DNA of 64,000 nucleotides, from positions 806,001 to 870,000 of the forward strand of contig NZ_CP141615.1 of the NCBI RefSeq assembly GCF_035593305.1. The letters run 5' to 3'. The position numbers were made by a program, and so were the translations under genes. This DNA is from Limnochorda sp. L945t (GTDB lineage: Bacteria; Bacillota; Limnochordia; Limnochordales; Geochordaceae). Under the pieces are notes generated by a model. That model saw only the letters and a list, made by a program, of their open reading frames with translations, was not told the origin of the DNA and ran no database searches. Shown here one piece after another: positions 1,674 to 13,298 of the stretch (positions are counted from its first letter, which is position 1; each line of letters starts with the position of its first letter).

Positions 1674-2812
1674 CGTGGCACCTGCCCGATCCGGCGCACG
1701 CGCATGGACGGATCGACCAGGATGGCGCTCGTCCCCGGCCATTGCCGCAACAAGCGCTCTCCCTGCTCCGGCCCGACGATGGCGAGGGCCGTCGAAAGGG
1801 CGTCGGCCACGGCGGCCGAAGTGGGGTGGAAGACCGTGACGGAGATCGCCCGGCGGGATGGCTGCCCGGTGCGGGCGTCGATCAGGTGCGTGTAGCGCAC
1901 ACCCTCGAATTCGAAGTAACGCTCGTAATCTCCGGACGTAGCCGCCGCTCCGTCCTGGAGCGTGACCGTATCCAGCAGCTTGCCGCTCTGGCGCGGGTGC
2001 TGGATACCGAGCCGCCAGGGCTTGCCGTCTCCCGGACGCCGGCCGAGCGCCCGTACCTCCCCGCCGACGTCCACCAACGCGCTCGAAAGGCCGGCTTTCT
2101 CGAGGACTTCGATGGCCCGGTCGGCCGCATACCCCTGAGCCACGGCGCCCAGGTCGAGAGCCATCCCCGGCTGCTCGAGATAGATCGACCAGCTGGTACC
2201 TTCGTGGCGTACACAGACCTGCCGGAAATCGACCAGACCCACGGCCTGGGCCAGCTCCTGCGCCTTCGGAGGGTGCCGTGGCGGATCCCGGTCGTAGCTC
2301 GCCCCGAACCCCCAGAGATCGACGACCGGAGCCACGGTCGGATCGAAGGCGCCCTCCGTCTGTTGGGCGACGGTGAGAGCCAGGCGAGTCAGCCGCCCGA
2401 CCTCTTCGGGTACCTCTACGGCATGGCGCCCCGCCCCTTTGGCCACTCGCGCCAGGGGGCCGTCCGGATCGAACCGGTCGAATAGGGCGTCCAGGCGCTC
2501 GACCTCCGCCATGGCGGCATCCACCGCCGCTCGAGCGCCAGGCCCTGCCGCCGTGACCTGCACGAAGCTTCCCATGGCGAAGCCGGCACGGCGCACCACG
2601 GAGGTGTCCGAAGGCGCCGTGGAGTCCGGGGCGCTCCCGGGCAGCGGTGAGCCGGCGCCGCCGGGGGCCCTCCCGCTCCACGGCATCCCCCTCGTCGCGA
2701 GCGCCGCGCCTGCCATTGCCAGGGCCAAAGCCGCCACGGCACCCGCCTCGAGCCACCGGCTCCCGGAGCGTGTAGCCGCCTGCCTCACGGGGTCACCCCC
2801 GCCCCCGTTCAC
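1670..2812 (-). CDS. apbE: FAD:protein FMN transferase (ApbE), membrane-anchored
   Basis: ApbE moves FMN from FAD onto a Thr or Ser of target proteins outside the cytoplasmic membrane; RnfD and RnfG are classic targets. The 380-residue protein has an N-terminal hydrophobic segment (about 20-42) with no lipobox Cys, so it is probably held by an uncleaved anchor. Family motifs are all present: GAFDPTVAPVVDLWGFG, ALDLGAVAQGYAADRA, LVDVGGEVRALG, AATSGDYERYF, HLIDARTGQPS and the metal-site stretch AVADALSTAL. It overlaps rnfB by four bases upstream and the Gx/NusG-II gene by four bases downstream, so it is made with the complex it flavinylates. Confidence 0.95.
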   Translation of the reverse strand: MNGGGGDPVRQAATRSGSRWLEAGAVAALALAMAGAALATRGMPWSGRAPGGAGSPLPGSAPDSTAPSDTSVVRRAGFAMGSFVQVTAAGPGARAAVDAAMAEVERLDALFDRFDPDGPLARVAKGAGRHAVEVPEEVGRLTRLALTVAQQTEGAFDPTVAPVVDLWGFGASYDRDPPRHPPKAQELAQAVGLVDFRQVCVRHEGTSWSIYLEQPGMALDLGAVAQGYAADRAIEVLEKAGLSSALVDVGGEVRALGRRPGDGKPWRLGIQHPRQSGKLLDTVTLQDGAAATSGDYERYFEFEGVRYTHLIDARTGQPSRRAISVTVFHPTSAAVADALSTALAIVGPEQGERLLRQWPGTSAILVDPSMRVRRIGQVPR

Positions 2813-3648
2813 GCCGGGCCGCTACCTACCCGCACCGGCTCGACCCGAGCGGGCGCCGGCGTGATCACGATGCAGTGGGTCGGGCACTTCTCGGCGCACT
2901 TGCCGCACCCGTCGCACCGGGCCGGATCGATGGAGGCCAGGTTGTCGAGGACGGTGATGGCCTCGCGGTCGCACGCCCGCTGGCAGATCAGGCACCCGAT
3001 GCACCCTGACCGGCACACCTGGCGCACCTGTTTGCCGGGGAGGGTCGAGAGACACCTCACGTAGGAGGCGCCGGCGTCCATGACCTGGATGACGCCCCGG
3101 GGGCAAACCAGTTCGCACAGCCCGCAGCCGGTGCAGCGCTGCTCGTCCACCACCGGGAGCCCGTCGGGCCCGATCGCGAGCGCTCCAAACGGGCAGGCCT
3201 CCACGCAGCTCCCGAGACCGAGGCAGCCGTCCGGGCACCCCTTCGGGCCTCCGGCCACCAAATCGGCCGCCCGGCAGTCCATGACCCCGTCGTAGCGTGC
3301 CCGCTGTACGGCGCTGTGGCAGTCACCTCCGCAGAGCACCCTGGCGATCCGCCGGGCAGTGTGGCCCACGGACCGCCCGAGGATGGCCGCCAGCTTCTGG
3401 ACCGTGGAGTCGCCACCAGCCCGGCACCCTTCCACGGGAGCCCCGCCCGCTATCAAGGCCCTGGCAAAGCCGCTGCACCCGGAGAAACCGCACGCCCCGC
3501 AATTGGCGCCGGGCAGGCTCTCCGTCACCTGGGCGATCCGGGGATCCTCCTCGACCCGCAGGAAGCGCCCCGCGATCACCAGCCCGATGCCGAAGAGCAG
3601 CCCCAGGCTCCCCAGGAGGCCCACCGCGGCCAGAATCCCCTGTACCAT
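2809..3648 (-). CDS. rnfB: Rnf complex subunit B, multi-[4Fe-4S] electron entry subunit
   Basis: RnfB takes electrons from reduced ferredoxin and passes them into the Rnf complex. The 279 residues start with one membrane helix (about 4-26). The Fe-S domain follows with the motif NCGACGFSGCSGFARAL and a fourth Cys in VEGC. Then come several CxxCxxCxxxCP clusters (CTGCGLCELVCP, CIGCLICQRACD, CDGCGKCAEKCP) and extra Cys in the middle. Length and order match clostridial-type RnfB. It lies 58 bases after rnfA, the largest gap in the operon, and overlaps apbE by four bases. Confidence 0.96.
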   Translation of the reverse strand: MVQGILAAVGLLGSLGLLFGIGLVIAGRFLRVEEDPRIAQVTESLPGANCGACGFSGCSGFARALIAGGAPVEGCRAGGDSTVQKLAAILGRSVGHTARRIARVLCGGDCHSAVQRARYDGVMDCRAADLVAGGPKGCPDGCLGLGSCVEACPFGALAIGPDGLPVVDEQRCTGCGLCELVCPRGVIQVMDAGASYVRCLSTLPGKQVRQVCRSGCIGCLICQRACDREAITVLDNLASIDPARCDGCGKCAEKCPTHCIVITPAPARVEPVRVGSGPA

Positions 3649-3706: not shown

Positions 3707-4285
3707 TCAAATGGGCACCATCCCGGAGAACCCCATGAACGCCAACGACAGCAGCCCCGCGATGGTGAGCGCCAGAGCCGTGCCCTCGAACGCCTTGGGC
3801 ACCCGGGTGTAGGCGAGCTCTTCCCGGATGCCCGCCATCAGCACCAGCGCCAGCGTAAAGCCAAGCCCCGTCCCCACTCCGAAGACGGCGGTCTCGGCCA
3901 GGTCGTACGCCTTGTTGGAGGCCATGAGCGCCAGCCCCAGCACGGCGCAGTTGGTGGTGATGAGCGCCAGGTAGATGCCGAACGCCTCGTACAGGGCCTG
4001 GTTGGCCTTGCGGATCACCATCTCGACGAACTGCACGAAGACGGCGATCACCAGGATGAAGGCGAGGGTCCTCAGGTAGCTCAGTTGCATCGGCACCAGC
4101 ACCGCGCGATCGACGATCCACGTCACCACCCCGGCTCCTACCAGGACGAAGGTGGTAGCCAGTCCCATGCTCACGGCCGTCTTCATCTGGCGGCTCGTAC
4201 CGAGGAACGGGCAGGTGCCGAGGAAGCGCACCAGCACGATGTTGTTGACCAGCGCCGAACTGATCAGCAGCAACAGCAGCTTCAC
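3707..4285 (-). CDS. rnfA: Rnf complex subunit A, integral membrane
   Basis: RnfA is one of the two homologous six-helix membrane subunits (with RnfE) that bind a buried Fe-S centre at the middle of the membrane. The 192-residue protein has six hydrophobic segments and the family sequences NNIVLVRFLGTCPFLGTS near the N terminus and ALITTNCAVLG near residue 110, each supplying a conserved cluster Cys. The ATG at 4285 overlaps the rnfE stop by four bases. The length is normal for the family. Confidence 0.96.
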   Translation of the reverse strand: MKLLLLLISSALVNNIVLVRFLGTCPFLGTSRQMKTAVSMGLATTFVLVGAGVVTWIVDRAVLVPMQLSYLRTLAFILVIAVFVQFVEMVIRKANQALYEAFGIYLALITTNCAVLGLALMASNKAYDLAETAVFGVGTGLGFTLALVLMAGIREELAYTRVPKAFEGTALALTIAGLLSLAFMGFSGMVPI

Positions 4286-4986
4286 CGGACCCCTCCTCCC
4301 ATCCCGGCCGCCTCGGCGACTCTGGCTCCCGCCATCCCGGCGGCCTTACGGGCTTGCGCTCGCTCCTGTGCGACCCGCACGGCGGCGTTGAGGCCCGCCA
4401 CGACGGCTCCCAGCGTCAGGAAAGCTCCCGGAGGCAGCGAGAAGAGCCCGAGCGGCGTAAACCAGTCGCCCAGCAACTGCCAGCCGAAGATGGTGCCTCT
4501 CGCCAGCAGCTCCCGCAGGGCGGCGATGAGCGTCAAGCCCCATATCTCACCCAGGCCCATGCCCAGCGCGTCCGCCGCGGAGCGCATCACGCCGTGCTTG
4601 GAGGCGAAGGCCTCGGCGCGGGCGAGGATGATGCAGTTGACCACGATGAGCGGGACGAAGATGCCCAGCGCGTCGTGGACCGCCGGGAGCAACCCGGCCA
4701 GGGTCATGTCGGTGACGGTCACGGCCGTGGCGATGATCACCACGAAGACCGGGATGCGGACGTTGTCGGGGATCACCCGGTGCATGGCCGAGACGATCAC
4801 GCCGGTGATCAGCAGCACCGCGGTCACGGCCAGGCCCATGATCAGGCCGTTGATGGCCGCCGTCGTAATGGCGAGCACGGGGCACATGCCGATGAGCATG
4901 CGAAGCGGCGGGTTTTCGGCCCAGATGCCCCGGGCCACGTCGCCGGCCAGGGTCTTGATCAGCCCGCCCCGGCTGTCGTCGGCCAC
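4282..4986 (-). CDS. rnfE: Rnf complex subunit E, integral membrane
   Basis: RnfE is the partner of RnfA in the membrane core of the ion-translocating ferredoxin:NAD+ oxidoreductase. The 234-residue protein shows GIWAENPPLRMLIGMCPVLAITTA with the first cluster Cys, and FVPLIVVNCIILARAEAFA with the second. There are about six transmembrane helices and an Ala/Gly/Arg-rich C-terminal tail. It starts six bases after the rnfDG stop and overlaps rnfA by four bases, so it is translationally coupled on both sides. Confidence 0.96.
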   Translation of the reverse strand: MADDSRGGLIKTLAGDVARGIWAENPPLRMLIGMCPVLAITTAAINGLIMGLAVTAVLLITGVIVSAMHRVIPDNVRIPVFVVIIATAVTVTDMTLAGLLPAVHDALGIFVPLIVVNCIILARAEAFASKHGVMRSAADALGMGLGEIWGLTLIAALRELLARGTIFGWQLLGDWFTPLGLFSLPPGAFLTLGAVVAGLNAAVRVAQERAQARKAAGMAGARVAEAAGMGGGVR

Positions 4987-4992
4987 CTCCGC

Positions 4993-6501
4993 TCACCGCC
5001 CCTCCGTGGCGGCCCGTACCGCCTCGATGGCTTGCACCACGATGTCGCACACGGCTACCGACGAGACCGTGGCCCCGGAGATCCCGTCCACGTCCTCACC
5101 CGGCATGAAAGCGTCGTCCAGGGGCTTCCCGGCGAACTGCCCCAAGAAGCCCTCTTCCTCGATGCGCGAGCCCAGTCCCGGCGTCTCGCTCTGCTGCAAG
5201 ACCCGCACACCGAGCAACTCCTTGACCTCGGGGTCGATGCCGACGGCCAGCCGGATCACGTCGTGGTACCCCTGCCCCTCGGTGAACACCCCGTAGCCCA
5301 CCCGGTTGCCCTGCGCATCCAGAGCCTCGAAAACCCGGGCGCCGTCGGTCTGCGACAGCCGGTTGAAGGTGACCGCCTCGGGAATCAGCGTCTTGAGGCC
5401 GAGCTCGATCTCCCGCCTTTGTTGCTGGCTGGCGATCAGAGGAGCCGTAGCGTGGTAGAAGCTCGCCAGCAAGACCCCCGCTGCCGACGTGACCAGCACC
5501 AGCACCAGGACGGCCTGGAGCTCGCCGCGCCATCTCGTGCCGTGGACCGCCTGCAATGACTTCGCCTCCCGGACGACACGCCAGTGGCGCCGGCGCAACG
5601 CGACCGACGCCCGGTTGAGCAGTGGCGTCAAAGCGTTCATCACCAGTACGGCAAAGGCTGCTCCCTCGAGGAACGACCCCTGCAGCCGCAGCAACACCGT
5701 CAGCGCCCCGGCGCCCAGTCCGAACACGAACCGCCCTTCGGCGGCGACCGGCGTCGTGGGCGGGTCGTGGACGAAGAAAGCCACCGTCAGGGGCGCCAGG
5801 CCCACGAGCCAGTGGTAAGCCGGGTGCCACCCCATGCTCACGGCCAGAAGCCCGCTGCCCACGAAAAAACCGGCCGGTGCCTGCCAGCGCCCCGCGCCCC
5901 AGCCCATCACCAGAACGCCGGCCACCAGCACCGCCAGGGGAGAGGCCGCTGCAAGGGGGCCGGGACCGGCGTGCCAGAGCAGGGGCAGGTAATCGGGAAT
6001 CACCTTGCCTGCCTTGGCGACGGCCATGAGCGCCGGCCTGGACGCGGTGCCGCCGGACAGCGCGGCCGCGAAGCTCCCCAGCAAGAAGACGTGCCCGACC
6101 AGGGCCGGGTTGAACAGGTTGTGTCCCAGGCCGCCGAACACGTACTTGCCCAGCGCGATGGCAGCGGCCGCACCGAGGAGCGCCATCCAGGTCGGTGCGG
6201 TCGGGGGAAGGGTGAGCGCGAGCAAGAGCCCCGTGACCAGGGCGCTGCCGTCGGCGAGGGTAGCGAGCGCCTTGCGGCGCAGCAACCACTCGCACGCTGC
6301 CTCGACCGCGGCGGCGCCGGCCATGCCGGCCGCCATCAGCCGTACGGCATCCAGCCCGTAGACGGCGACGGCGGCGGCGCCCGGTATGGCGGCCGCCAGC
6401 AGCGTCAGGCGCACCAGGGTCGTGACCGGCTCCGCCACGTGAACGTGGGGTGCCGGCTGGACCCACAGCATGGGATGCGTGACCGTCTCCTGCCCTTTCA
6501 C
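4993..6501 (-). CDS. rnfDG: RnfD-RnfG fusion, flavin-bearing Rnf subunits in one frame
   Basis: One 502-residue frame carries both flavin subunits. Residues 1-315 are RnfD: many membrane helices, with GKYVFGGLGHNLFNPALVGH as the family signature. Residues about 325-502 are RnfG: one helix (LQAVLVLVLVTSAAGVLLASF), then an extracytoplasmic domain ending in DGISGATVSS, the FMN-attachment motif with Thr about 478. No stop separates them. A TTG codon at 5556 preceded by GGGAGG at eight bases could also start a free RnfG. The RnfD flavinylation site is degenerate: AALSGGT where Dxx(S/T)GAT is expected. The GTG at 6501 overlaps the rnfC stop as GTGA; an ATG at 6471 is an alternative. Confidence 0.93.
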   Translation of the reverse strand: MKGQETVTHPMLWVQPAPHVHVAEPVTTLVRLTLLAAAIPGAAAVAVYGLDAVRLMAAGMAGAAAVEAACEWLLRRKALATLADGSALVTGLLLALTLPPTAPTWMALLGAAAAIALGKYVFGGLGHNLFNPALVGHVFLLGSFAAALSGGTASRPALMAVAKAGKVIPDYLPLLWHAGPGPLAAASPLAVLVAGVLVMGWGAGRWQAPAGFFVGSGLLAVSMGWHPAYHWLVGLAPLTVAFFVHDPPTTPVAAEGRFVFGLGAGALTVLLRLQGSFLEGAAFAVLVMNALTPLLNRASVALRRRHWRVVREAKSLQAVHGTRWRGELQAVLVLVLVTSAAGVLLASFYHATAPLIASQQQRREIELGLKTLIPEAVTFNRLSQTDGARVFEALDAQGNRVGYGVFTEGQGYHDVIRLAVGIDPEVKELLGVRVLQQSETPGLGSRIEEEGFLGQFAGKPLDDAFMPGEDVDGISGATVSSVAVCDIVVQAIEAVRAATEGR

Positions 6502-7985
6502 GATCGGGTCGCCACCTTTTCGGCCGCCCGCTCGGCCGGACGCCTCCGGGGAGCGGAGGGGCGGCCCTTGGCCAGCGTGATCCACTGCAGGAGCGGCCGG
6601 CGGGCCGGGCAAACGGCAGCGCACGCAGCGCACTCGACACAGGCACGAGCGCCCAGGTCCCGGGCCTCGGCCATCTGGCCGGCGCCCGCCGCCCGGGCGA
6701 TGTACAATGGGAGCAGGCCCACCGGGCAGACCTCCACGCACCGGCCGCATCGGATACAGGCCGCTTCCGGGTGGAGGCGCTCGAGATGGCGCTCCTGCAG
6801 GAGGGCCAGGGCGGGAAGCGACGCGGTGACCGGAAGGCTGAGGTCGGGGATGGCCTCGCCTCGCAGGGGCCCACCCGCCAGCGCCATGGCGACGGCGGGC
6901 GCGGGCGGCACCTGGCCGTCGGCCCCCGGTGCAGCCGGCGTGCGAGTGTCCGGCTTCGGGGCCATCGCCCATGCGGCGACGACCTCCAAAGCGAGCCCGA
7001 TGGGCACGTAGAAAGCCCGTACGGGCCCTCTCGGACCCGTGGCCACGGCCAGAAGCCTGTGGGTCACGGGAAAGCCATCCTGCAACGCGTGCCCGGCGGC
7101 CACCGCGGTACCCGCCGACTCCACGACGAAGGGGGCCGCCCCTAGCCCGGAAAGCCGCATGGCCCGGGCGGCCAGCAGGACCGGTACCTCCCGCCAGTCG
7201 AGCTCTCTAAGGGTGACCAGCCGGATGGCGGCCGGTCGGGAGGTATCACCGGCGCCCCTGGCGGATGCCTGGCGGCGCAGCGCCTCTTCCACCGCGGGCC
7301 GGGCAGGGGAGGAGGAGAGGACGGCGACGACGGCGCCGGCGGCGCCCAGGGCTCTCACCAGCGCCCTCGTCCCCAATACGAGGGCGTCCGGCTCCGCAGC
7401 GGCCTCCAGGGCCTCGCTCGGGATCGCCGGCTCCGGCCCTACGGCGTTGATCACCAGCGTGGCGCCGCCGGCTCCCCGGCGCAGCAGCGCCGGGAGGCTT
7501 GCAGCGAGTTGGAGTGAGCCGTCACCCGGGTGCGCCGCGGTCAACCTGCCGGTCAGCCCGGCCTGGAGCAAGTAACGCGCCAGCTCCTGGCGCGGCCACG
7601 ACTCCGGGTGAGCACAATCCCACGGCCGCTCCAGGGGGGCTGCCCACTCGTCGAGCCCGTCCGACTCTACGGTCACCGCATGCAGGACGCCTGCCGGCGT
7701 GCAAAGCGGGCCGACGTCCACGACCTTGCCCGATACCGGGCTGTGCACCGGGACGCCTGCCCGGGCCGCCTGGGCACCCTCCTCCGGCGCGGTTGGCCCA
7801 TCGTCCGGGGCATCGGGCTCCAGGAGGACCTGGCCTGCCGCGACCCGATCCCCCTTGCGTACGACCGGGTAGGCTCCAGGGTGGGGGCCGCGGCCGGGAC
7901 CCCAGGGAGCGGTCAGGGTGAACCGTATGCCCGGGGTCGTCGCCAGGGGACGGCTCCCGGCCGGTCGCAGGGCCTCATCGTTCAT
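6498..7985 (-). CDS. rnfC: Rnf complex subunit C, NADH/FMN and Fe-S subunit
   Basis: RnfC is the peripheral cytoplasmic subunit that exchanges electrons with NAD. The 495-residue protein has the N-terminal barrel/hybrid region (VRKGDRVAAGQVLLEP, VHSPVSGKVVDVGP), a central flavin/NADH-binding Rossmann-like part, an SLBB-like region and two C-terminal [4Fe-4S] motifs: CIRCGRCVEVCPVGLLP and CVECAACAAVCPARRP. The nucleotide-binding glycine pattern is less obvious than in textbook RnfC. The ATG at 7985 is chosen because AAGGAG sits ten bases upstream; the frame is open further upstream but without family similarity. It is the first gene of the operon. Confidence 0.93.
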   Translation of the reverse strand: MNDEALRPAGSRPLATTPGIRFTLTAPWGPGRGPHPGAYPVVRKGDRVAAGQVLLEPDAPDDGPTAPEEGAQAARAGVPVHSPVSGKVVDVGPLCTPAGVLHAVTVESDGLDEWAAPLERPWDCAHPESWPRQELARYLLQAGLTGRLTAAHPGDGSLQLAASLPALLRRGAGGATLVINAVGPEPAIPSEALEAAAEPDALVLGTRALVRALGAAGAVVAVLSSSPARPAVEEALRRQASARGAGDTSRPAAIRLVTLRELDWREVPVLLAARAMRLSGLGAAPFVVESAGTAVAAGHALQDGFPVTHRLLAVATGPRGPVRAFYVPIGLALEVVAAWAMAPKPDTRTPAAPGADGQVPPAPAVAMALAGGPLRGEAIPDLSLPVTASLPALALLQERHLERLHPEAACIRCGRCVEVCPVGLLPLYIARAAGAGQMAEARDLGARACVECAACAAVCPARRPLLQWITLAKGRPSAPRRRPAERAAEKVATRS

Positions 7986-8038
7986 GCTCGCCCGACTCCT
8001 TCGTGGCGGGAGGATCGAGAAGGGAAAGGGTAGTCTTA

Positions 8039-8052
8039 GTGAAGACATTCAC
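8039..8052. promoter_or_regulatory. candidate Rex-type operator in front of the rnf operon
   Basis: A perfect 5-4-5 inverted repeat, GTGAA-GACA-TTCAC, lies 54-67 bases upstream of rnfC. GTGAA-N4-TTCAC is the core of the Rex redox repressor site (TTGTGAA-N4-TTCACAA); the outer bases here differ from the consensus. An NADH/NAD+ sensor controlling an NAD-reducing complex would make sense. The site is seen; Rex binding is inferred, and no rex gene is in the window. Confidence 0.4.
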
Positions 8053-9250: not shown

Positions 9251-9374
9251 CCTGAAGGAGCGCATAGCGCAGTGCAGGGGTCGGGCCGTCGCCTCGCGAC
9301 CCGGTGGAGGTAGGCGCCGGCCGAGAGCGAACCTTCGGGCCACACCCGCCTGGGTGACGGGGGAGGGAGCGCCC

Positions 9375-10802
9375 GTGGGCATCGTCGAACGGCTGCGGCG
9401 TATCTACGGCCCGGAACGGATGGTCAGTGACCCGGCGGCCCTGCGGGTCTACGAGACCGACGGCCTCGCCTCGGAGCGCCAGATGCCGCTCACCGTGGTC
9501 TTTCCTCGCGAGGCCGACGAGGTGGTGGCCACCGTGCGGGCCTGCTTCGAGGATGAGGTTGCGTTCGTCGCGCGTGGGAGCGGTACCAGCTTGAGCGGAG
9601 GGTCGGTGCCGCCTCCCGGTGGTGTGGTGATCGCCCTCAACCGCATGAACCGCATTCTCCGGCTCGACCCCGACGAGCAGCGGGCCGTGGTGGAGCCGGG
9701 GGTCGTCAACGCCCATCTGAGCCAGGCGGCCGCCCCCTACGGCCTCTACTACGCCCCCGACCCCTCGAGCCAGGTCATCTGCACCCTGGGGGGCAACGTG
9801 GCCTTCAACTCCGGGGGCGCCCACTGCCTGAAGTACGGCATGACCTCCAACCACGTGCTGGGCCTCCGGGTGGTGCTCCCCGACGGCACGGTCGAGCGCC
9901 TCGGCGGGAGCAGCCTGGAGGTGCCCGGGCCGGACCTGGTGGGGCTTTTCGTGGGGTCGGAAGGGCTGATGGGGGTCGCCGTCGAGATCACGGTGCGCCT
10001 GTTGCCCAAACCCGAGGCAGTGCGGACCCTGCTTGCCGCTTACGGGAGCCTGCAGCAGGCGGGCGAGGCCGTGGCGGCCGTGGTGGAGAGCGGGCTTCTG
10101 CCGGCCGCGATGGAGATCATGGACCGCCTCGCCATCGAAGCGGCGGAAGCGGCCGTGCACGCCAACTACCCGAAAGGCGCCGGAGCGCTGCTCATCGTCG
10201 AGCTGGACGGCCCCCGGGACGAGGTCGAGTCGGACTTCGTGCGGCTTCACGAGCTCATCCGGCGCTCGGGGGCGACCGAGGTGCGCGTGGCTTCCGACGA
10301 CGCCGAGCGCCTGAAGATCTGGAAGGGCAGGAAAGGCGCCTTTTCCGCGGTCGGCAGGCTCAGCCCGGCCTACCTGGTGCAAGACGGGGTGGTGCCCCGC
10401 ACCCGCCTCGGGGAGGCCCTGTGCGAGATCGAGCAGCTGGCCGCCGCGGCGGGGTTGCGCGTGGCCAACGTCTTTCACGCCGGCGACGGCAACCTGCACC
10501 CCCTGATCCTGTACGACGGGCGCAGGCACGGCGAGCGGGAGCGGGCCGAGGAGCTGGCGGCGGCCATCCTGCGGGTCTGCATCCGCCAGGGAGGCTCCAT
10601 CACCGGCGAGCACGGGGTCGGCCTGGAGAAGCGGCAGTTCCTCGGCGAGATGTTCGCCGAGGACGACCTGCGCGCCATGGCCCGCCTGCGCAGGGAGATG
10701 GATCCTCTGGGGATCGCCAACCGCGGCAAGATGTTTCCGCCCGGCTTCGAGGAGGCCGGCGAGGCGGGACGGGCGCTGCTGCCATCCGCGGCCGCAGGCT
10801 GA
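9375..10802 (+). CDS. glcD: glycolate oxidase FAD subunit GlcD
   Basis: GlcD oxidises glycolate to glyoxylate (or a related 2-hydroxyacid) with FAD and passes electrons to GlcE/GlcF. The 475-residue protein is a full-length FAD_binding_4 oxidase: [17 protein letters not shown] (pyrophosphate-binding), [33 protein letters not shown], and the C-terminal FAD-oxidase_C region with [17 protein letters not shown] and [14 protein letters not shown]. The GTG at 9375 is preferred because GGGAGGGAG ends five bases upstream; another in-frame GTG lies at 9354. It starts a tightly packed operon glcD-glcE-glcF-hyi-glxR. Confidence 0.95.
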
Positions 10803-10817
10803 GGGGTGGGACGGGCA

Positions 10818-11996
10818 ATGGCGGTCGAAGAGGTGCAAGGTGCGGACGTCCTGGCGCCGGCCGATCCCGGCGAGGCAGCAGAGGCGGTCAAGGCCAGCCG
10901 GGTGGTGGTGCCCCGTGGAGGCGGCACGAAGTGGGGGCTCGTCGCGGCCAGGATGGCCAGCGTCGCCGGTACCCAGGGCGGGGTGCGGATCGTCGACACG
11001 ACTCGCCTGGCCGGCATCCTCCAATACGACCCGGCGGAGTACACGGTGACGGTGCTCGCGGGCACCCGGTTGGACGATCTCGGGCAAGTGCTCCGGCGTG
11101 CCGGGCAATACCTGCCCTTCGACCCGCCGTTGGCCGGCAGGGGCGCAACTGCCGGAGGGGCCGTCGCCTCGGGTCTGAGTGGCCCGGGGCGACTGCTCCG
11201 CGGGGGTGTTCGCGACTTCGTACTGGGCATCCGGTTCGTCGACGGCGAGGGGCGGCTGGTACGAGCCGGCGGCAAGGTCGTCAAGAACGCGGCCGGCTTC
11301 GACTTGCCGAAGCTCTTCTGCGGCAGCCTGGGAGAGCTGGGCGTGCTCGTCGAGGTGACGTTCAAGGTGCTGCCGGCCCCGCCATCCTCCGGCACCGCCC
11401 GGTTCGGATTCGACCGGCTGCCCGACGCGGCGGCGGCCTTGCGGAGGCTGTTGCGCACCCCGCTCGAGCCGGATGCGGTCGACCTGGTCGAGCGCCGGGC
11501 GCTGCAGGCCGCAAGCGGGCCGGAGGTTGCCGGAGACGACCCGTGGTCGCTGTGGGTGCGGGTGAGCGGCGAGGAAGCGCACGTCGCCGCCCGGCTCGAT
11601 CGGGTGGAGGACGTGGTGGGGGCACCGGGCGCGCGGCTGCACGGCCCGCCCGAGCAGGCCCTGTGGGACGGCTTGCGGGACCTGGACTGGGCCTCCCGCG
11701 CTCCGGCCGTGCTCCGGCTGCACACGACCCCGGGGCGGATCGAACGGCTCGACGAAGCCTTGCAGCGTCTCGGCGCCCTCCGCCACTACAGCGTCGCGGG
11801 CCACGTGGCGTGGGCGGCCGTGGAGTCCGTGCCGGCGCGCTCCCTGGTGGTCTCCGAGCTCGCCGGGCTGGCGGACGCGGCTCTGGCCCTGCGGGGCGCA
11901 CAGGGCTCTCCGCACGTGCTGATGCCGGGGGAGGGCTTCGCCCGCAGGGTCAAGCGGGCGCTGGATCCGGCGGGGCGCTTCGGCGGGAACGGGTAA
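10818..11996 (+). CDS. glcE: glycolate oxidase FAD-binding subunit GlcE
   Basis: GlcE is the smaller FAD-binding partner of GlcD. The 392-residue protein has the flavin-fold motifs VVVPRGGGTKWG, ATAGGAVASGLSGPGRLLRGGVRDFVLG, and GGKVVKNAAGFDLPKLFCGSLGELGVL, which is very characteristic of GlcE. The C-terminal half is less conserved and ends in DPAGRFGGNG, the usual DP-x-G-x-F ending of this family. The ATG at 10818 follows a GAGGGGTGGG ribosome-binding stretch; it lies 15 bases after glcD. Confidence 0.94.
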   Translation: MAVEEVQGADVLAPADPGEAAEAVKASRVVVPRGGGTKWGLVAARMASVAGTQGGVRIVDTTRLAGILQYDPAEYTVTVLAGTRLDDLGQVLRRAGQYLPFDPPLAGRGATAGGAVASGLSGPGRLLRGGVRDFVLGIRFVDGEGRLVRAGGKVVKNAAGFDLPKLFCGSLGELGVLVEVTFKVLPAPPSSGTARFGFDRLPDAAAALRRLLRTPLEPDAVDLVERRALQAASGPEVAGDDPWSLWVRVSGEEAHVAARLDRVEDVVGAPGARLHGPPEQALWDGLRDLDWASRAPAVLRLHTTPGRIERLDEALQRLGALRHYSVAGHVAWAAVESVPARSLVVSELAGLADAALALRGAQGSPHVLMPGEGFARRVKRALDPAGRFGGNG

Positions 11997-12011
11997 GGGG
12001 GAGGAGTGCCG

Positions 12012-13298
12012 GTGCAGCATCGAATCGATGGGGCTCGCCTGGGGCCGTACGGCCCGGCCATGGCCGCGGCGATCGAGGCGTGCGTGCACTGCGGCTTTTG
12101 CCTGCCGGCCTGCCCCACCTATCAGGAACTGGGCGAGGAGATGGACTCTCCCCGAGGCCGTATCTACCTCATCAAAGAGGCGCTGGAAGGGCGCCTGAGC
12201 GTCGACGGAGCGGCCGGCCAGCACGTGGATCGATGCCTGGGCTGCCTGGCCTGCGTGGAGGCTTGCCCGTCGGGCGTGCGCTACGACCTGCTCCTGGTGG
12301 GCTTCCGGGAGTGGCAAGAGACGCGGCGCAAGCGTTCCGCCCTGTCGAGGTGGTGGCGGCGGGGCCTGCTGTCGGTCCTGCCCTACCCGCGCCGCTTGCG
12401 GGCCGCGGTGGCGCTGGGACGGGCGGCCGGGGGGATGAGGCGGTGGCTCCCCCGGCGGCTGCGGGCGATGATCGATCGCATCCCGCCGGAGCCGGTGCGG
12501 GCTGCCGGGGTACCCCCGGCCATCCCGACCCGAGGTCCGCGGCGCGCCCGGGTGGCGTTGTTGCGGGGCTGCGTGGAATCGGTGCTGGCTCCCGGGATCC
12601 TGGAAGCGGCCGTGCGGGTGCTGACCGCCAACGGGGTCGAGGCAGTCGTCCCCGAGGGGCAGGGGTGCTGCGGCGCCCTCGCCCTGCACGCCGGGGCCGC
12701 CGCTCAGGCCCGGGCGCTGGCGAGGCGCAACCTCCGGGCGTTGCGCCCTGAAGAGGTGGACGCCATCGTCACGACCGCGGCCGGGTGTGGTTCGGCGATG
12801 AAGGAGTACCCGGCGCTCTTTGCCGGGCGACCCGAGCAGGACAGGGCTCGAGCCTTCTCGGCGAAGGTGCGGGACATTTCGGAGTTTCTCGACGCGATGG
12901 GCATCACGCCGCCGAGCGCTGCCGGGCGCCCGGGGCGCGTCGCGTATCACGATGCCTGCCACCTCGGCCACGGGCAGGGAGTACGGGATGCGCCGAGAAG
13001 GCTCCTTTCACGGATGCCCGGGGTGGAGCTCGTGGAGATCCCCGACGGCGATACGTGCTGCGGATCTGCGGGCATCTATCACCTGGAGCACCCGGAGCTG
13101 GCGCGCCGGTTGCAGGAGCGCAAGGTGGAGGCCATCTTGCGGACGGGGGCCGGCACCGTCGTGGCGGGCAACATCGGGTGTATCGTGCAGATTCGGGAGG
13201 GGCTGGCCCGCCGGGGGGCCGGGCGCGTGAGAGTGCAGCACACGGTGGAGTTGCTCGATCGGGCCTATGCCCGGCCTGAAGGAGGAGGCGGCGGATGA
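12012..13298 (+). CDS. glcF: glycolate oxidase iron-sulfur subunit GlcF
   Basis: GlcF carries electrons from the flavin subunits to the quinone pool. The 428-residue protein has two N-terminal [4Fe-4S] motifs (CVHCGFCLPACPTY and CLGCLACVEACPSG), then two cysteine-rich CCG domains (GQGCCGALALHAG, AYHDACHLGHGQGV, DTCCGSAGIYHLE). These are the features of GlcF and its LldE/HdrD relatives. Two GTG codons, at 12006 and 12012, compete; 12012 has the better spacing from GGGGGAGGA. The stop overlaps the start of hyi by four bases. Confidence 0.94.
   Translation: MQHRIDGARLGPYGPAMAAAIEACVHCGFCLPACPTYQELGEEMDSPRGRIYLIKEALEGRLSVDGAAGQHVDRCLGCLACVEACPSGVRYDLLLVGFREWQETRRKRSALSRWWRRGLLSVLPYPRRLRAAVALGRAAGGMRRWLPRRLRAMIDRIPPEPVRAAGVPPAIPTRGPRRARVALLRGCVESVLAPGILEAAVRVLTANGVEAVVPEGQGCCGALALHAGAAAQARALARRNLRALRPEEVDAIVTTAAGCGSAMKEYPALFAGRPEQDRARAFSAKVRDISEFLDAMGITPPSAAGRPGRVAYHDACHLGHGQGVRDAPRRLLSRMPGVELVEIPDGDTCCGSAGIYHLEHPELARRLQERKVEAILRTGAGTVVAGNIGCIVQIREGLARRGAGRVRVQHTVELLDRAYARPEGGGGG

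Follow-up and report, generated by a model that had tools for sequence, protein, structure and literature searches.

We found that RnfD and RnfG were encoded as a single chain in a 64,000-nucleotide stretch of a Limnochordia genome (hereafter, the window; the host genome is a single contig of 3.31 Mb). We propose, with a probability of roughly 60%, that the fusion is genuine and conserved and belongs to a re-wired Rnf complex, in which electrons would end at a one-electron acceptor other than NAD+. The host is presumably a heat-loving subsurface bacterium. On the minus strand, which the first-pass annotation had not specified, an uninterrupted 502-aa frame ran from GTG at 6501 to a stop at 4993, and the plus-strand reading of 4993–6501 contained a stop. 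This GTG, which overlaps the rnfC stop and is preceded by AAGGTGG, is the likely start; a 659-aa ORF beginning at an ATG was rejected as the true gene because it is merely an upward extension into rnfC. When a 506-aa translation starting four codons upstream was searched, PF03116 (RnfD) matched residues 18–302 with 215 bits (cut-off 27.7) and PF04205 (FMN_bind) matched residues 415–497 with 56.5 bits. In the predicted structure, for which, as for RnfC below, the underlying alignments are dominated by ordinary RnfD, RnfG and RnfC, residues 1–315 matched 9eri_D (Z 32.6, rmsd 6.2, 297 aligned) and residues 325–501 matched 8rb8_G (Z 15.6, rmsd 4.3, 173 aligned). The chain comprises RnfD at about 1–302, a linker at about 312–323 and RnfG at about 324–502, and the model agreed, showing the RnfD helices, a flexible stretch at 314–322 and then the RnfG anchor helix. 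In known structures, the RnfD termini are cytoplasmic and an N-terminal helix anchors RnfG (PMC9588780; PMC11889175), so a cytoplasmic linker fits. Thus, the first half belonged to RnfD by family profile and fold, and the second to RnfG by its anchor helix and an FMN_bind domain with [ST]GAT. The first-pass annotation had read both subunits in one frame, and this was confirmed by the open translation, by both Pfam domains and by all four genomes of the family that were examined.

The fused gene was part of a minus-strand operon in the order rnfC, rnfD-rnfG, rnfE, rnfA, rnfB and apbE, followed by a Gx/NusG-like gene named from sequence alone. All six subunits (C, D and G fused, E, A and B) were therefore present in one operon together with ApbE. 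RnfC (6498–8048; 516 aa) combined a degenerate FMN/NADH domain with two intact 4Fe-4S motifs. RnfE (4282–4986) and RnfA (3707–4285) each kept both cluster Cys residues, RnfB (2809–3648; 279 aa) kept its FeS motifs, and the RnfG part kept its flavinylation motif, SGAT, at residues 475–478 (5068–5079), so that RnfB, RnfA and RnfE appear intact, as does the flavin site of RnfG. ApbE (1670–2812), a flavin transferase, matched PF02424 with 273 bits. No second RnfC or free RnfG was found elsewhere in the genome, four other 51K-domain proteins being set aside. Divergent from rnf, positions 9354–12751 of the window held glycolate or lactate oxidase-like genes (GlcD/GlcE/GlcF; names from sequence only); coupling of rnf to them was rejected, as G001, another genome of the family, lacks this synteny.

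The junction was then compared among the four family genomes (the window's own, G061, G001 and G002), which represent three species, G061 being a second genome of the window's species. Each carried a single PF03116 domain and a single PF04205 domain, both in the fused frame, indicating that the fusion is the sole source of RnfD and RnfG there. As the first-pass annotation described, codon 316 is a TTG (5554–5556) lying 8 nt after GGGAGG (5565–5570; AGGAGG in the two sister species). Its suggestion that a free RnfG, here 187 aa, could also be made remained plausible, since the TTG and an AGGAGG-like site recurred at the same spacing in all three species. Among 37 shared Leu columns, this was the sole column with TTG in all three species. 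It was also the sole start-like codon with a good Shine-Dalgarno sequence in all three, and both elements sit within the poorly conserved linker. Conservation across three species suggests, but does not prove, that an internal start is used. In order-mates of family f4, rnfD ended ...AAGGAGGTTTCTGTTC-GTG-CGTAG, where the GTG, 9 nt after AGGAGG, is the rnfG start and overlaps the rnfD TAG; at the same junction in the window's family, AGGAGG (GGGAGG in the window) is followed at 8 nt by a TTG in frame with rnfD. The fusion probably originated in a small frame change at this rnfD/rnfG junction, which overlaps in the order-mates (GTGCGTAG). A one-base difference in the spacer would join the two frames, and divergence of the linker hides the exact event. 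The old rnfG ribosome site would have been left in place after the frame change, and some free RnfG may persist. Alternatively, the internal TTG could be the main rnfG start, with RnfG largely a free chain and the fused form minor or processed, which we regard as rather unlikely. The conserved junction elements in a variable linker, and the same kind of ribosome site at the rnfG start of order-mates, speak for such a scheme. However, no family genome has a stop after RnfD, so RnfD can arise only in fused form, barring cleavage or a frameshift, neither of which is known.

Next, we analyzed the flavin sites of the RnfD half. In Acetobacterium woodii RnfD, FMN is bound on T156, and riboflavin is bound via N123 and D249 (PMC11889175). 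In an alignment to that protein, the T156 equivalent fell in ALSGGTASRPAL of the window, and D-x-x-[ST]-x-A-T-P-L was absent there; residues 147–160 (6022–6063), the remnant of the covalent FMN-D loop, read about ALSGGTASRPALMA instead. The GxxGET loop was altered too, and the pLDDT of the model fell below 50 at residues 152–154. A loose motif pattern matched further on by chance (AAASP), and the loss is therefore based on the alignment. The motif was absent in all three family species, the sisters showing AVSAGWAGRQP (L031), with no Thr whatsoever in the former site, and AVSAGATDAPP. The covalent-FMN site was retained, with minor variants such as STVTPL and TIASPL, in every other RnfD examined (about 110); L034 and L048, considered as further losses, were rejected because they retain ATATPL. 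In contrast to the lost FMN-D site, both predicted riboflavin ligands were kept, namely Asn131 (6109–6111; N123 in A. woodii) and Asp246 (5764–5766; D249). Since the RnfD half has no covalent-FMN acceptor motif, the fused chain most likely has a single covalent FMN, attached to RnfG Thr478, together with at most a non-covalent riboflavin in RnfD. The proposal in the first-pass annotation that the fusion fixes two flavin carriers at 1:1 and shortens their distance was thus not supported. Even so, flavinylation of the window's SGGT, a sequence shared by Bu05, is conceivable in principle.

RnfC showed a similar pattern. It had lost GxGGAGFPT, the EC of ECEP, DHR, ENK and YPQGxE, and residues 163–178 (7515–7562) read AGLTGRLTAAHPGDGS in place of AGIVGMGGAxFPTHVK. 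In its NuoF-type FMN/NADH domain, 12 of 33 conserved positions were kept versus 15 of 16 in the Fe-S domain, where both 4Fe-4S motifs were intact. Its match to PF01512 (Complex1_51K) was 24.5 bits, below the cut-off of 31.2, whereas the intact RnfC of order-mates scored about 160 bits. The RnfC model retained the Rnf fold (8ahx_C; Z 32.3, rmsd 3.1, 394 aligned), with pLDDT below 50 at residues 170–181, the former FMN loop. Given this fold and the retained E206-P207 (the EP of ECEP), RnfC may still bind FMN or NAD weakly. GxGG[AGS]x[FY]P was kept in 110 other RnfC and missing in seven, all from the same order. G004 and G007 had a degenerate RnfC only. In three order-mates (G005, G008 and G010), a degenerate RnfC heads the operon and an intact RnfC follows the Gx gene; there, the operon adds an upstream two-FMN_bind protein (L036, L037 and L038 with L131–L133). 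Family f2 of the same order (G003, G006, G009, G011 and G012) had no match to RnfC, RnfD or FMN_bind.

Together, the motifs make it very likely that FMN-D and FMN-C are gone while the other cofactor sites are kept, and NAD+ reduction by the complex is improbable. It is an Rnf member by descent and composition, and the claim of a ferredoxin:NAD+ oxidoreductase should be lowered. In the known Rnf path, electrons pass from ferredoxin through RnfB, the RnfA/E cluster, FMN-G, FMN-D, riboflavin, the RnfC 4Fe-4S clusters and FMN-C to NAD+ (PMC12174285, PMC11889175, PMC9588780). In the window's complex, reduced ferredoxin would likewise be the electron source, with RnfB and then the RnfA/E iron-sulfur cluster as relays; outside the membrane, the covalent FMN carried by RnfG would receive the electrons. 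In the absence of FMN-D, FMN-G would pass them directly to the RnfD riboflavin and then to the two RnfC 4Fe-4S clusters, and the RnfG tether to RnfD would aid docking of FMN-G over the vacated FMN-D pocket. Because RnfC lost the FMN that converts single electrons to hydride, electrons probably go to a one-electron acceptor rather than to NAD+; an iron-sulfur protein, a flavodoxin or a quinone-linked partner are candidates. The fullest version of this scheme we advance only tentatively. It is a ferredoxin-driven Rnf pump that abandoned NAD+, where one covalent flavin on a tethered RnfG would dock onto the RnfD riboflavin, one-electron acceptors would be served via RnfC Fe-S, and dual translation would supply tethered and free RnfG.

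Alternatively, FMN-G could hand its electrons off at the outer face, either to the quinone pool or to some external acceptor, which would leave the RnfD-RnfC limb as a structural remnant. The joint loss of the FMN-D and FMN-C sites agrees with such an exit, as does the occurrence, next to rnf in relatives, of additional FMN_bind proteins and multi-flavin RnfG. External transfer has been proposed for multi-flavin RnfG (PMC8238504), and methanogen Rnf is expected to pass electrons via a cytochrome to methanophenazine (PMC12174285). However, the window's rnf operon holds no extra flavin or cytochrome gene, and the riboflavin ligands and both RnfC Fe-S sites, needless in a dead limb, were kept. 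Amino-acid identity between species was 48–82%, although codons were identical in only 30% of the columns with a shared residue, indicating that the Rnf proteins are still under constraint. Since this constraint extends to the ligands of riboflavin and of the RnfC Fe-S clusters, the return limb probably remains in use, and we consider an outer-face exit unlikely.

The published text on Carboxydochorda subterranea, the cultured species to which the window probably belongs, takes ferredoxin:NAD+ activity by analogy and lists Rnf as 'rnfCDEAB' (PMC11456536). An ordinary ferredoxin:NAD+ pump would demand that the altered sites are tolerated, that the flavins in RnfD and RnfC could bind without covalent attachment and that the fusion is neutral. 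The six constrained subunits with apbE, the kept fold and E206-P207 of RnfC are consistent with it. Nevertheless, the glycine loop, E-C, DHR, ENK and YPQGxE were lost together while the Fe-S domain was kept, and in the order's other Rnf-bearing families the RnfC site is degenerate too or a second intact RnfC complements it. We therefore find an ordinary pump quite unlikely. The reading of a re-wired complex also amends the published list, in that RnfG exists as part of the RnfD chain and the NAD site seems to be lost.

Finally, that sequencing or assembly error joined two genes can practically be dismissed, as the fused frame occurred in four genomes of three species from independent assemblies and nothing was found in favor of an error; a missed base or stop near 5555–5600, which the first-pass annotation named as a risk, was likewise rejected by the three further genomes. 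Limnochordaceae bacterium Bu05 is assigned to the same species as C. subterranea L945T (PMC11456536), and its MAG (L047, a separate assembly) showed the same open frame with 98% identity over the whole fused protein. Identity to the window's protein was 58% in G001 and 62–63% in G002, two further species of the family.

Single-chain RnfD-RnfG, which the annotation had proposed to seek in Limnochordia and relatives, proved recurrent: about 25 of the 61 class genomes searched carry at least one single frame with both domains. The fusion recurs in about three fused clades of Limnochordia and nearby Bacillota, and it is not unique to the window's family. Tblastn matches spanning both domains in Halanaerobium and others were separate genes, not fusions. 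In a quick-method tree of the RnfD part, fused proteins fell into three groups. One is the window's family (support 100), another the L034/L035 pair of family f12, and the third a multi-flavin clade (L042–L045, L067, L069, L071 and L093). The four changes printed on this tree are an overcount, as L067 and L043 were entered as separate genes though single-frame. The stem of 1.7 changes per column indicates that the window's family is fast-evolving, and with such long branches its placement is unsure. Among the sequences compared, fusion combined with loss of the FMN-D and RnfC sites appeared only in the window's family.

Compared with canonical Rnf (A. woodii 9eri, Clostridium tetanomorphum 7zc6 and Azotobacter vinelandii 8ahx), the window shares the six functions, the gene order C-D-G-E-A-B, the RnfA/E/B and RnfG cofactor motifs and the folds of RnfD, RnfG and RnfC. 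It differs in having RnfD and RnfG as one chain and in the loss of the FMN-D acceptor site and the RnfC FMN/NADH site. Na+-NQR (NqrA-F) offers parallels, since NqrA is related to RnfC but carries no redox cofactors and NqrB moves electrons from riboflavin to quinone (PMC12174285). However, NqrB retains its covalent FMN, and the window's RnfC keeps two 4Fe-4S sites; its operon has RnfB for ferredoxin input and no NqrF (NADH, FAD, 2Fe-2S). In Desulfobacula toluolica-type Rnf2, RnfC lacks the NADH-binding domain, and another acceptor was therefore proposed (PMC5109826); by description, its RnfB of about 700 aa with NAD sites sets it apart from the window's ordinary RnfB and fused RnfD-RnfG. Rnf reviews, structures and the flavinylation survey (PMC8238504, PMC12174285, PMC9588780) do not mention a fused RnfD-RnfG. 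No literature on it or on an NqrB-T236Y variant was found in a search that left most subscription papers outside. Thus, single parts have precedents or parallels, and no description of their combination in one complex was found. Models of the Rnf mechanism invoke four flavins (FMN-G, FMN-D, riboflavin and FMN-C) and an RnfG swinging about 35 Å (PMC12174285); a complex seemingly without FMN-D and FMN-C and with RnfG tethered offers a natural way to learn which flavins and which motions are required for ion pumping.

The multi-flavin fusions of other Limnochordia and Peptococcaceae bacterium 1109 are likewise single chains, but they form another clade, keep the FMN-D motif and RnfC site, and mostly add FMN_bind repeats. 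Their RnfD part is followed by at most about five flavinylation motifs, and they stand beside an ordinary rnf in the same genomes. Multi-flavin RnfG as such was already known (PMC8238504), and RnfG with two FMN_bind-like stretches was observed in order-mates and other class members (L033, L036–L041 and L046). The fused protein L035 (G032) carried a repetitive Ala/Thr-rich insert (TEATTAATA-like) at residues about 185–250, just before its FMN-D motif.
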